Positions 4,783 to 52,462 of a DNA stretch of 64,000 nt are shown piece after piece; within the stretch, counting starts at the first letter, position 1; each line of letters begins with the position of its first letter. The stretch covers positions 1 through 64,000 of the forward strand of contig JAEPNO010000017.1 in NCBI GenBank assembly GCA_017643365.1, read 5' to 3'. Source of the stretch: Balneolaceae bacterium (GTDB taxonomy: Bacteria > Bacteroidota > Rhodothermia > Balneolales > Balneolaceae). The notes under the pieces are model-generated. The model ran no database searches and was not told the origin of the DNA. It saw nothing but the letters and a program-made list of their open reading frames with translations. Position numbers and translations under genes: made by a program.

Positions 4783-4853
4783 TGCCCGGTCGTCTAATGG
4801 CAGGACACCTGGTTTTGGTCCAGTATGTGGGGGTTCGAATCCTCCCCGGGCAA
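4783..4853 (+). tRNA. tRNA-Gln (TTG anticodon)
   Basis: A full cloverleaf can be drawn. The acceptor is TGCCCGG (4783-4789) paired with CCGGGCA (4846-4852), the D arm is GTC/GAC, and the anticodon loop TTTTGGT has TTG at positions 34-36. The T arm is GGGGG/CCTCC around TTCGAAT (4834-4840). No CCA is encoded. The anticodon reads CAA/CAG, giving glutamine. Confidence 0.93.
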
Positions 4854-4860
4854 CTATACT

Positions 4861-17849: not shown

Positions 17850-18608
17850 ATGATTAATAATTTTTGGGAGCGATTCATTAAGCTCTTCACAAAAACGATA
17901 CTTTACGTTTGGTATATACGCTGGTTTTGGAAACCTGAAGAGGGGAGTATCAATGAAATTTTGAATCGAGCTGCAAAAAGAGATCCTGAATTCACTTTTG
18001 TCCAAATTGGTGCAAACGATGGGTATCATAACGACCCGCTGTATAAGTTCATTCGTGCTTATAATTGGAACGGCATAATGGTGGAACCTCAGGTGCATGT
18101 TTTTGAACGATTGAAGAAGAATCACAAAGGTAATGATGTATTAAAGTTCGAGAATGCCGCAATTTCTGCTGAAAAGGGAGTCATTCCATTTTACATGCTG
18201 GCGGTTTCAACAGCTCGATGGGCAACAGGCATGAGTTCTTTTGATCAAAAGCATATCGAAGAACACATCGACATAGGGTTTGTGAAAAAATGGGCGACCC
18301 GAGAAGGAATTACTCTCCCGGAAAATCGAGAGGATTATATTAAATGCGTGGAAGTCCAAACAATGAACTTCGATGATCTGATCGCAAAGCACGGGTTGAA
18401 CGATGTAGATGGGATCATTTTGGATTGCGAAGGTTTTGACTCAATGGTGCTTTCGACGGTAGATATTCCAGGATATAATCCGGATATCATTTTGTTCGAG
18501 CATCTCCATTTTAAAGATGAAGACTACCAAGAGTTGACAGACCGTTTAAGCGATTTAGGCTATGAATTACGTAGTGATGAAATGGATACGATTGCGTTTA
18601 AGAGATGA
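17850..18608 (+). CDS. FkbM family methyltransferase
   Basis: SAM-dependent methyltransferase of the FkbM family, usually O-methylating a glycan, polyketide or small molecule. The SAM site is FVQIGANDGYHNDPLY, followed by GIMVEPQVHVFERLKKN with the acidic ribose-binding residue, and the C-terminal block DGIILDCEGFDSMVL. ATG at 17850 gives about 252 residues. The frame is open upstream, with a GTG at 17775 and ATG at 17793, so the start is uncertain. It is a single gene flanked on both sides by related palindromes (17753 and 18631) and followed by the REPIN-like array, suggesting a mobile or recently placed segment. Confidence 0.82.
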   Translation: MINNFWERFIKLFTKTILYVWYIRWFWKPEEGSINEILNRAAKRDPEFTFVQIGANDGYHNDPLYKFIRAYNWNGIMVEPQVHVFERLKKNHKGNDVLKFENAAISAEKGVIPFYMLAVSTARWATGMSSFDQKHIEEHIDIGFVKKWATREGITLPENREDYIKCVEVQTMNFDDLIAKHGLNDVDGIILDCEGFDSMVLSTVDIPGYNPDIILFEHLHFKDEDYQELTDRLSDLGYELRSDEMDTIAFKR

Positions 18609-18610
18609 GT

Positions 18611-18679
18611 AGCCGAACAGTTGAACATTGATCAACTACGCTAAAGCTTCGTTGATTGAAAACAGCCGAACAGTTGAAC
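18611..18679. repeat. 16-bp direct repeats flanking palindrome b
   Basis: AGCCGAACAGTTGAAC occurs identically at 18611-18626 and 18664-18679, one copy on each side of the palindrome at 18631-18656. Confidence 0.75.
18631..18656. repeat. Palindromic repeat, copy b
   Basis: Arms ATCAAC and GTTGAT enclose the core TACGCTAAAGCTTC. It lies 22 bp after the FkbM stop codon. The same core is in copy c after tRNA-Ser, and the reverse-complement form is in copy d after the GIY-YIG gene. Confidence 0.75.
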
Positions 18680-18796
18680 TTCGAATGTTGTTCTAGTTTT
18701 GCCAATTCGATCCCGATTGATCGGGAGAGAAATCTAAAGAATTTGATCAAGACCGTGAGTTCTATTTGTCACTTCGTTCTAAATTCCAAAGCCCAA

Positions 18797-19048
18797 GTCT
18801 CCCCTTGAGGGGAGTGCCGTCCGCCAGCCGGCGGATGGCGAGGGGTGTCAAGTGACGATCGACGACTGACCAACGACGACCGAAGAACACCCTCCGTCAT
18901 CCGGCGATTGCCGGATGCCACCTCCCTCAAGGGAGGACTAACGCTCAGCATTAATAAGTTTAATGGTTGCTCAGAATTTAGAAAAGCAAATTTTCCTTTA
19001 AGCAGGAATTAGATTTCACACTCTATTTGAAAAGACAATATCGATAAG
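18797..19048. repeat. REPIN/MITE-like element 1 plus spacer
   Basis: A 143-bp element (18797-18939) with inverted ends of about 50 bp. The left end holds hairpins CTCCCC/GGGGAG and TCCGCC/GGCGGA; the right end holds CATCCGGC/GCCGGATG and CTCCC/GGGAG. The middle is rich in ACGAC. A spacer of about 110 bp follows that also recurs in unit 2. No reading frame is supported. The period to the next unit is 251 bp. Confidence 0.8.
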
Positions 19049-19299
19049 GCTCCCCTAGAGCGGAGTACCGTCCGCCAGCTGGCGGATGGCGAGGGGTGTT
19101 GAGTGGCGAGCGACGACTGACTAACGACGACCGAAGAACACCCTCCGTCATCCGGCGATTGCCGGATGCCACCTCCCTCAAGGGAGGACTAACGCTCAGC
19201 GTTTATAAGTTTAATAGTTGCTCAGAATTTAGAAAAGTAAGTTTTCCTTTAAGCGGGAATTAGATTTCACACTCTATTTGAGAAGACAATATCGACAAG
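19049..19299. repeat. REPIN/MITE-like element 2 plus spacer
   Basis: Second unit of the tandem, exactly 251 bp after unit 1 and nearly identical over the element and spacer. The left outer hairpin is degraded (CTCCCCTAGAGCGGAG), while the inner hairpin keeps its pairing as TCCGCC-AGCT-GGCGGA. Confidence 0.8.
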
Positions 19300-19521
19300 T
19301 CTCCCCTAGAGGGGAGTGCCGTCCGCCAGCCGGCGGATGGCGAGGGGTGTCAAGTGGCGAGCGACGACTGACTAACGGCGGACGTTCTTCATCAACGTGA
19401 ATACGATGAAAAATCCTGCAGTATTCCAATGGGTATGGGTTTAAATTTCATTCCCGACGACCGTTGAACACCCTCCGTCATCCGCTTTTCAGCGGTTGCC
19501 ACCTCCCTCAAGGGAGGACTT
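19300..19521. repeat. REPIN/MITE-like element 3 with a different centre
   Basis: The left end matches units 1 and 2, but from about 19378 the centre is replaced by roughly 80 bp of unrelated sequence before a divergent right end (CCGC-TTTTCA-GCGG, then CTCCC-TCAA-GGGAG). The remaining bases to 19641 show no gene or other clear structure. Confidence 0.75.
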
Positions 19522-19641
19522 GTCCTGAGCATTAATTAGTTTGTTTCTTGATCCAAAATAGAAATGACAAATTGAATCAGTTCCCATTGAATGCAAGAAT
19601 TACAATTTCGAGATTATTTACCCGCAACCCGCAACCTAAAT

Positions 19642-51175: not shown

Positions 51176-51730
51176 ATGAGTTTATATTTACCGGAACAGG
51201 TAGAGTGTAAAGGGGAGAATTTTAAAGTTTTTATTAGCAAAGAGCAGATCGATGCCAGGCTCTCACTAATGGGCGAGCAAATTGATAAAGAGTACGAAGG
51301 CAAGCGCCCGATATTTATTGGAATTTTAAATGGCTCGTATATTTTTCTCGCCGATTTGATGCGCAATGTCTCTATACCATGCGAAGTTGATTTCATGAAA
51401 CTCTCGAGTTATGGAGATGAAAAAGTGTCTTCCGGAAATGTAACCGAACTGAAGCACATCGATGCAAAGCTAAAAGATCGACATGTAATATTGATCGAAG
51501 ACATTGTTGATACCGGTCTTTCGATGAAGTATATGATTGAGAGGATGAAGTCGTATTCTCCGGCAAGTGTGAAAGTGGTTACTTTGCTCCATAAGAAAGA
51601 TGCAACGGTGCACGAAGTTCAAGTCGATTACGTAGGATTTGAAATTCCGAATAAATTTGTACTCGGTTATGGCCTCGATTATGCTCAGGAAGGCCGAAAT
51701 TTGGCACAAATTTATGTTCTTGACGATTAA
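51176..51730 (+). CDS. hpt: Hypoxanthine phosphoribosyltransferase
   Basis: Salvages hypoxanthine and guanine to IMP and GMP. The 184-residue protein has GILNGSYIFLADLMR, the metal/PRPP loop VILIEDIVDTGLSMKYM, and VDYVGFEIPNKFVLGYGLDY with the purine-binding residues. It follows tilS by 4 bp, an order common in Bacteroidota and other phyla. Confidence 0.93.
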   Translation: MSLYLPEQVECKGENFKVFISKEQIDARLSLMGEQIDKEYEGKRPIFIGILNGSYIFLADLMRNVSIPCEVDFMKLSSYGDEKVSSGNVTELKHIDAKLKDRHVILIEDIVDTGLSMKYMIERMKSYSPASVKVVTLLHKKDATVHEVQVDYVGFEIPNKFVLGYGLDYAQEGRNLAQIYVLDD

Positions 51731-51794: not shown

Positions 51795-51883
51795 GGAGAG
51801 GTGGCTGAGTGGCTGAAAGCGCTCCCCTGCTAAGGGAGTTTACCTGGAAACAGGTAACGAGGGTTCGAATCCCTCCCTCTCCG
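51795..51883 (+). tRNA. tRNA-Ser (GCT anticodon)
   Basis: Acceptor GGAGAGG (51795-51801) pairs with CCTCTCC (51876-51882), with G as discriminator. The anticodon stem is CTCCC/GGGAG around CTGCTAA with anticodon GCT. A long variable arm (TACCTG/CAGGTA) and T loop TTCGAAT confirm a class II tRNA. No CCA is encoded. Confidence 0.94.
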
Positions 51884-51910
51884 CACAACTACGCTAAAGC
51901 TTCGTTGTGC
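51883..51910. repeat. Palindromic repeat, copy c
   Basis: Arms GCACAAC and GTTGTGC around the same core as copy b. The outer arm bases differ from b on both sides so that pairing is kept. It begins at the last base of tRNA-Ser. Confidence 0.75.
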
Positions 51911-51976
51911 AGGCTCAACTATCGAAAACAATGTTTTTGAGTGAGTTTGCTAGAAGTTGGTAGTTAACAAAGTCAA

Positions 51977-52028
51977 TGTAAAGTCGAACCCTCATGCTTC
52001 TTAAGTGTGAGGGTTTTTTATTTGGGGG
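51977..52028 (+). terminator. Direct repeat R1 with intrinsic terminator
   Basis: About 50 bp, nearly identical to R2 (52324-52375). It contains AACCCTCA/TGAGGGTT (51987-51994 and 52008-52015), followed by TTTTATTT. It ends just before the GIY-YIG start. Confidence 0.85.
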
Positions 52029-52033
52029 ATGTG

Positions 52034-52285
52034 ATGTTTTATGTATACATGTTGAAGAGTATAGACTCAGAATGGCGATATACCGGATCAACAAATGATT
52101 TACGCGAGAGGCTCAAAAAGCATAATGAGGGTGAGGTGCAATCCACAAAGCATTTTGCACCCTTTAAGCTGGAGGCTTATGTAGCCGTTAACTCAGAAGT
52201 AAAAGCGCGAGCCTTAGAACAATACTTTAAAACCGGATCGGGTGCAGCGATCATGAAAAAGCGAATTCTACAGGTGCCGGAATAG
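52034..52285 (+). CDS. Single-domain GIY-YIG endonuclease-like protein
   Basis: About 83 residues comprising only the GIY-YIG nuclease domain. FYVYMLKS and YTGSTNDLRERLKKHN hold the two signature tyrosine strands and the catalytic Arg, and KARALEQYFKTGSG the metal-binding Glu region. Related UvrC-like mini-proteins are common in Bacteroidota; targets are unknown. ATG 52034 is preferred over an upstream frame extension to 52007. The gene is enclosed by direct repeats R1/R2 and palindromes c/d, next to tRNA-Ser, and sits right behind a strong terminator. Confidence 0.85.
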   Translation: MFYVYMLKSIDSEWRYTGSTNDLRERLKKHNEGEVQSTKHFAPFKLEAYVAVNSEVKARALEQYFKTGSGAAIMKKRILQVPE

Positions 52286-52292
52286 TCAATTT

Positions 52293-52324
52293 AATCAACG
52301 AAGCTGTACTCAGCGTAGTTGATT
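52293..52324. repeat. Palindromic repeat, copy d
   Basis: Arms AATCAAC and GTTGATT around a core that is the reverse-complement form of copy b, with a longer loop (GTACTC). It lies 8 bp after the GIY-YIG stop and directly joins R2. Confidence 0.72.
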
Positions 52325-52375
52325 GTAAAGTCGAACCCTCATGCTTATTAAGTGTGAGGGTTTTTTAATTGGGGG
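52324..52375 (+). terminator. Direct repeat R2 with intrinsic terminator
   Basis: Copy of R1 at an offset of 347 bp. The hairpin is AACCCTCA (52334-52341) with TGAGGGTT (52355-52362) and a T run. It is followed by a run of eight G's (52371-52378). Confidence 0.85.
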
Positions 52376-52462
52376 GGGCGAATTCAGGTAATTAACCCCA
52401 ACACTTTGAGTTAGCGTTACAATTCATTACATACCCATAACTAACCTAATTATGGAGGATGT

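Follow-up and report, generated by a model that had tools for sequence, protein, structure and literature searches.

Why should a gene for a single-domain GIY-YIG nuclease lie directly 3' of an intact tRNA-Ser gene, enclosed by two nearly identical terminator repeats? The question is raised by a locus of a Balneolaceae bacterium (NCBI GenBank assembly GCA_017643365.1, contig JAEPNO010000017.1). The window, that is, the whole stretch of DNA analysed, comprises positions 1 to 64,000 of the forward strand of this contig, and the features of the locus are collected in Table 1. An earlier note on this DNA had described the order tRNA-Ser, palindrome c, R1, GIY-YIG gene, palindrome d and R2, which was confirmed, and had considered either tandem duplication or insertion of a nuclease unit beside the tRNA gene as its origin, with self-mobilisation as an attractive hypothesis.

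Table 1. Features of the tRNA-Ser locus (positions in the window)
Feature	Position	Strand	Evidence or remark
hpt-like phosphoribosyltransferase gene, conserved upstream neighbour	51176..51730	+	PF00156; matched in 58/59 genomes
tRNA-Ser(GCT), intact, host gene of the cassette	51795..51884	+	ARAGORN; Rfam RF00005, 62 bits
Palindrome c, right at the tRNA 3' end	51884..51909	+	weak fold, z -1.5
R1: tRNA-Ser trailer motif TGTAAAGT, rho-independent terminator and GGGGG ribosome site	51977..52028	+	
GIY-YIG nuclease gene, single-domain, 83 aa	52034..52285	+	PF01541, E 8e-15; likely start ATG at 52034, stop ends at 52285
Palindrome d, hairpin adjoining the duplicated trailer	~52292..52325	+	-14.3 kcal/mol, z -4.6
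R2: second trailer and terminator copy, with ribosome-site remnant	52324..52375	+	
347-bp repeat unit (R1, nuclease gene and palindrome d), missing at the empty site	51977..52323	+	

The tRNA-Ser Locus and Its Empty Counterparts

The repeats, earlier given as about 50 bp, nearly identical and 347 bp apart, proved to be 52-nt direct repeats at exactly this distance with 50 of 52 positions identical. They were also rightly read as terminators, both of them containing a strong hairpin followed by T's (-18.4 kcal/mol; z -6.3 and -7.1), and the GGGGG ribosome site of the nuclease gene is part of R1. Even with up to 3 mismatches allowed, the 3.77-Mb genome has no copies of the R core other than these two, so R1 and R2 are a local duplication; R as a dispersed repeat was ruled out. 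The clear duplication in the window concerns the trailer and terminator only, not the tRNA body, and palindrome d takes the part of the hairpin. Within the 347-bp unit the GIY-YIG gene is the sole frame and no integrase gene is found. A search of the region with Rfam 15 placed only RF00005 (tRNA) above the gathering score, R and the palindromes being unmatched. Palindrome c belongs to the same palindrome family as the psi-tRNA hairpins of the window's protein clade, and its sequence stands 3' of tRNA-Ser in relatives both with and without the nuclease gene. The other tRNA gene of the window, tRNA-Gln (4783-4854), has no cassette directly 3' of it.

Orthologous loci in relatives were located via the hpt-like gene and the stretch 3' of it was then inspected. 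One TGTAAAGT trailer and one terminator, with no nuclease gene, follow tRNA-Ser in G002, G001, G028 and G018, the first two of which belong to the genus of the window source. Downstream of the empty site of G018 (L158) lies an MscS-like gene, as in the window (178/220 residues identical), and the distance from the tRNA to this gene is 137 bp there versus 578 bp in the window. Because the relatives with empty sites hold a single copy, R1 and R2 are the native tRNA-Ser trailer-terminator, duplicated around an inserted gene. Occupied and empty alleles of this site exist between species, not within one species, and empty and occupied sites coexist inside one genus. The comparison across relatives that the earlier note had proposed thus returned strains with one R-type trailer-terminator and no GIY-YIG gene; the whole arrangement is not shared by all relatives, and insertion beside the tRNA gene is the part of the suggested origin that these clean empty sites support.

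A Protein Reduced to the Catalytic Domain

The single-domain GIY-YIG identity held, the window protein scoring 55.3 bits against PF01541 with a curated cut-off of 22.6. Residues Y5, Y16, G18, R26, H30 and E62 are each kept in at least 127 of 131 family proteins, and K66 is also kept among the catalytic-type residues. From domain start to stop the family members have a median of 85 aa, so little lies outside the GIY-YIG domain, and no separate DNA-binding module was found beside it in the 131 proteins compared. By sequence, the closest solved relatives are UPF0213 proteins (PDB 1zg2, E 8e-16; 1ywl, E 7e-11), whose structures are annotated as hypothetical proteins; the DNA nuclease SLX1 is also among them. 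UPF0213 and other stand-alone GIY-YIG proteins share the one-domain size of the present family, and to our knowledge no tRNA-linked cassette is known for UPF0213 proteins.

A Family Beside tRNA Genes

The window protein was used as a search query in 59 relatives and the loci were then inspected; similar genes adjoin tRNA-Gly, Met, Leu, Pro, Asn, Val, Asp and Ser. A 17-protein profile, whose seeds were mostly tRNA-linked members of the order, matched 69 of the 85 genomes examined from that order, the number of matches in a genome ranging from 0 to 14 at E<=1e-3. Across the phylum, 111 of the 198 genomes sampled carry such proteins (E<=1e-12). Within the order, a tRNA or tRNA fragment adjoins 104 of 137 strong matches, and tRNAs within 400 bp share the strand of the nuclease in a ratio of 93:0. 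Of 137 members in a second set, drawn for the most part from beyond the order, 98 have a tRNA no more than 400 bp away, and here too the two genes share a strand without exception (98:0); the nuclease gene follows the tRNA in 69 and precedes it in 29, and 18 further members are found in tandem arrays. Despite the seeding of the profile with tRNA-linked members of the order, the adjacency outside the order is an independent result. Some 13 amino acids are represented among the tRNA genes bearing the arrangement. Most members that lack a neighbouring tRNA belong to a single clade, are part of a tandem array or have been cut off by the end of a contig. Genome contigs were scanned with a Gly-type alignment, and named loci come from Balneolaceae, Cloacimonadota, Ignavibacteria/Melioribacter, Marinimicrobia, Flavobacteriaceae, other Bacteroidetes, Acidobacteria and Verrucomicrobia.

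The locus, earlier seen as a single oddity, is instead a member of a phylum-wide family, one of hundreds of miniature nuclease cassettes adjoining tRNA genes. This large family is apparently undescribed: the open-access full text searched yielded no description of it, and a survey of the GIY-YIG superfamily from 2006 (PMC1564403) uses neither Bacteroid- nor Cytophaga in its main text. The recurrence also bears on another account, in which a terminator was duplicated by chance around an unrelated small gene that has no mobility. One such tandem duplication could yield R1 and R2 at the window locus alone, yet tRNA genes for many amino acids, in several phyla, have this arrangement next to them and always on the same strand, which makes chance duplication highly improbable here and refutes it as a general account.

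Two loci depart from the usual setting. At L005 (1500-1800; G026:C39) a GIY-YIG gene is flanked by two copies of the 5' end of a conserved rfbB-looking gene, one of them truncated and the other full, and because of this duplication tRNA genes may not be the sole targets. At L008 (G020:C3:737573) a GIY-YIG gene apparently lies inside a gene for a putative RAYT-type transposase, a name read from the sequence.

Partial tRNA Copies, Hairpins and Decay

The typical order at these loci is an intact tRNA, a terminator, the nuclease gene, a psi-copy of the tRNA 3' part and a copy of the terminator. The last 12 nt of the cognate tRNA are copied downstream of the nuclease gene in 47 of 97 cases, as against 3 of 1429 for non-cognate tRNAs. 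A perfect hairpin, mostly TCCCGA-N4-TCGGGA, abuts the copied piece in 33 of 47 cases versus 51 of 940 random positions; being so far above chance, this placement ruled out that the hairpins are merely generic genomic palindromes. Such hairpins may mark the ends of the element, be scars left by repair or represent a palindrome that moves along with it. One Ser clade has a 22-bp hairpin element that splits the T loop at GTTC^GAATC (6 loci in 5 genera), and in the Gly psi-tRNA the 5' half of the T arm is replaced by a hairpin. Mirror-image loci also occur (including L237, L241, L246 and L247), with a tRNA 5' half and hairpin, the nuclease gene and then the intact tRNA. The psi-tRNA-Gly of L019 (after the stop at 1773) has two hairpins in place of the 5' halves of the anticodon arm and the T arm, and hairpin insertion can therefore recur in one copy.

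Copy number and decay are visible in the genome of the window itself, where the initiator-Met locus holds at least 3 tandem copies, the last with frame damage, an additional decayed psi-tRNA is found at Gly, and an Asn-like copy is degenerate. The tandem cassettes 3' of initiator tRNA-Met (L140 2868-4100; G000:C1) contain a run of N. Many draft contigs of relatives stop within such arrays, and these loci therefore seem to break assemblies.

The hairpins differ by protein clade: TCCCGA belongs to Gly, TCCGCC to initiator Met, TGCC..CCCTTCGGGA to one Ser clade and CTACGC..GCTTCG to the Ser clade of the window. They are also found elsewhere in the genomes, some within the loops of other palindromes. 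For instance, a 22-bp TGCC..AGGCATCCCTTCGGGA element lies in the loop of another palindrome at CTC^GATTCC, a site resembling the T-loop site GTTC^GAATC, in L189 (G000:C15:41531) and L188 (G002:C27:10166). The window has a REP-like palindrome cluster at 18560-19560 with three cassette hairpin families, CTACGCTAAAGCTTCG, TCCCGATTGATCGGGA and TCCGCCAGCTGGCGGA.

REP/RAYT systems combine short genomic palindromes with a small nuclease-type gene, and in this respect the cassettes resemble them. The nuclease might likewise act on short hairpins and insert them into loops, both those of tRNA genes and those of other palindromes; psi-tRNAs would then be the places where such insertion is tolerated. Such spreading would suit the clade-specific hairpin families and their occurrence in other palindromes' loops. 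Hairpin number correlates with the GIY-YIG count (rho 0.51 over all genomes and 0.35 inside the family) and also with the cognate lineage, correlations that are uncorrected for phylogeny and partly circular. Genomes may, however, hold dozens of hairpins and few GIY-YIG genes, and hairpin spreading as the primary activity is considered improbable. Besides, the cassettes differ from REP/RAYT in their GIY-YIG fold, which is not that of an HUH tyrosine transposase, and in the tie of the gene to tRNA loci; beside the palindromes of the window no HUH tyrosine transposase was found, the only match between them being PF01541.

Protein Lineage and tRNA Kind

Each protein lineage is tied to one tRNA kind. 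On a tree of 135 domains, changes of tRNA amino acid number 9 (minimum 7; 99 loci) as against 53-68 when the kinds are shuffled within genus. For a set of 187 loci from 72 genera the changes number 35 as against 92-119. With few columns in the alignment and weak forks in many places, the claim is carried by these counts and not by single forks. One protein clade occupies Ser-GCT, Ser-TGA and Ser-GGA genes alike, from which it follows that this clade moves between loci or tracks sequence rather than locus. Pro-GGG genes are occupied by two unrelated protein clades, and one g19 protein groups more closely with an f5 protein than either does with the remaining Pro-type proteins from the g19 protein's family.

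A gene handed down vertically at one locus would yield the same match between clade and tRNA, because the tRNA loci are mostly single-copy with a conserved, mostly syntenic upstream context. Vertical persistence with loss is indeed the explanation for part of the pattern and would also fit much of it at the genus level; the Gly and Met lineages look largely vertical when genus groups are compared. Against descent alone stand the Ser clade at three gene types, the two Pro-GGG clades, the g19/f5 pair and the presence of empty and occupied sites in one genus. The cassettes might go further and represent an old host gene, acquired long ago at each tRNA locus, transmitted vertically, co-transcribed with the tRNA, serving the host (for example, by keeping tRNA genes intact) and often lost. 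Conserved upstream synteny at same-isotype loci, Gly and Met lineages that track genus groups, and strongly kept catalytic residues are in line with such a role. Yet the distribution is very patchy, down to empty sites in the same genus and from 0 to 14 matches per genome, tandem copies decay, and a host gene gives no reason for psi-tRNA and hairpin copies or for mirror-image loci; it is therefore regarded as unlikely.

RNA recognition would also produce specificity for tRNA kind and co-orientation, if the protein or the psi-tRNA transcript acted on the tRNA or its precursor, for instance by cutting or sequestering the cognate tRNA. Such a function appears quite improbable, as the closest solved relatives are UPF0213 proteins and a DNA nuclease, the duplicated terminators and the empty and occupied sites would be left unexplained, and no PADLOC defence family was matched.

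A Proposed Homing Cassette of tRNA Genes

Elements with tyrosine integrases that integrate at tRNA genes restore their target, because they carry a copy of the tRNA end that is lost on insertion. The present cassettes would be alike in tRNA-gene insertion and in the restored gene. They differ in lacking an integrase, in being units of ~350-400 bp with one nuclease gene, in the hairpin at the psi-tRNA edge, and in that the duplicated part can be the 5' half. A second comparison is offered by SegB of T-even phages, in behaviour the closest counterpart that has been tested, a free-standing GIY-YIG homing nuclease encoded between tRNA genes and tRNA-linked in many phages, which cuts inside tRNA genes at the motif RAWTSGAAC (PMC13096335). 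The complement of this motif, GTTCSAWTY, would fit the T loop where hairpins split the psi-tRNA-Ser copies (GTTC^GAATC). SegB is, in contrast, phage-borne, has 221 aa and is associated with tRNAs without preference for particular isotypes, whereas the present family has ~85 aa, is chromosomal, consists of tRNA-specific lineages and is accompanied by psi-tRNAs with hairpins; by sequence the two are not close (6.9 bits over ~20 aligned residues).

The best explanation of the locus is, at a probability of about 0.58, a miniature chromosomal homing cassette of SegB-like type that cuts tRNA genes and brings along the missing tRNA half, cleavage and movement being what we infer from the arrangement of the loci. 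The protein would cut its cognate tRNA gene, or the trailer just 3' of it, in a cassette-free chromosome, and recombinational repair would copy the cassette into the cut site. In the simplest account, the inserted unit would have the missing gene part at one end and the hairpin at the other, with its insertion point in the tRNA gene or trailer. By supplying the missing tRNA part and a terminator, the cassette would restore the tRNA at once, and the displaced remainder would become the psi-tRNA. The cassette, in which no promoter was recognised, would be transcribed from the promoter of the tRNA by read-through of the terminator; free-standing phage nucleases without promoters of their own are known (PMC2988022). 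Copies would later multiply in tandem and decay.

Homing is supported by the empty and occupied sites with the same flanking genes, by the strict same-strand adjacency in both sets, by the enrichment of cognate 3' copies and of the hairpins abutting them, by the agreement between protein tree and tRNA amino acid together with the one clade at three Ser gene types, by tandem and decayed copies and mirror-image loci with the 5' half duplicated, and by the fit of the SegB motif complement to the T-loop split site. The tie between lineage and tRNA is the pattern to be expected if a selfish element both cuts tRNA genes and mends them on entry. Several points argue against homing. The carrier keeps an intact tRNA gene and should thus itself be cut, unless the nuclease cleaves weakly or its site is protected. 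The match between clade and tRNA is partly explained by vertical inheritance and repeated loss, the protein consists of the catalytic domain and lacks the DNA-binding module that homing nucleases usually have, and the window itself clearly duplicates only the trailer-terminator. As for vehicles, no relatives were found in phages (window protein), plasmids (Gly-type protein) or IMG/VR (Gly-type alignment). The self-mobilisation suggested earlier survives as the best explanation, although much of the genus-level pattern fits vertical inheritance and loss as well.

More tentatively, the cassettes may constitute a separate class of minimal mobile elements: ~350-400 bp long, encoding the catalytic domain alone, with one tRNA kind per lineage, inserting in tRNA genes, carrying the missing half, bearing a hairpin at the edge of the displaced piece and owning a lineage-specific hairpin family that also spreads through the genome. 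If these proteins home, the tRNA genes of Bacteroidota are continuously attacked by tiny selfish nucleases, and homing would account for the broken tRNA copies, for the terminators found in duplicate and for the places next to tRNAs where assemblies break. The family would then provide a natural set of nucleases of ~85 residues with tRNA-gene specificity, and how a bare GIY-YIG domain reads DNA sequence would become a directly testable question.
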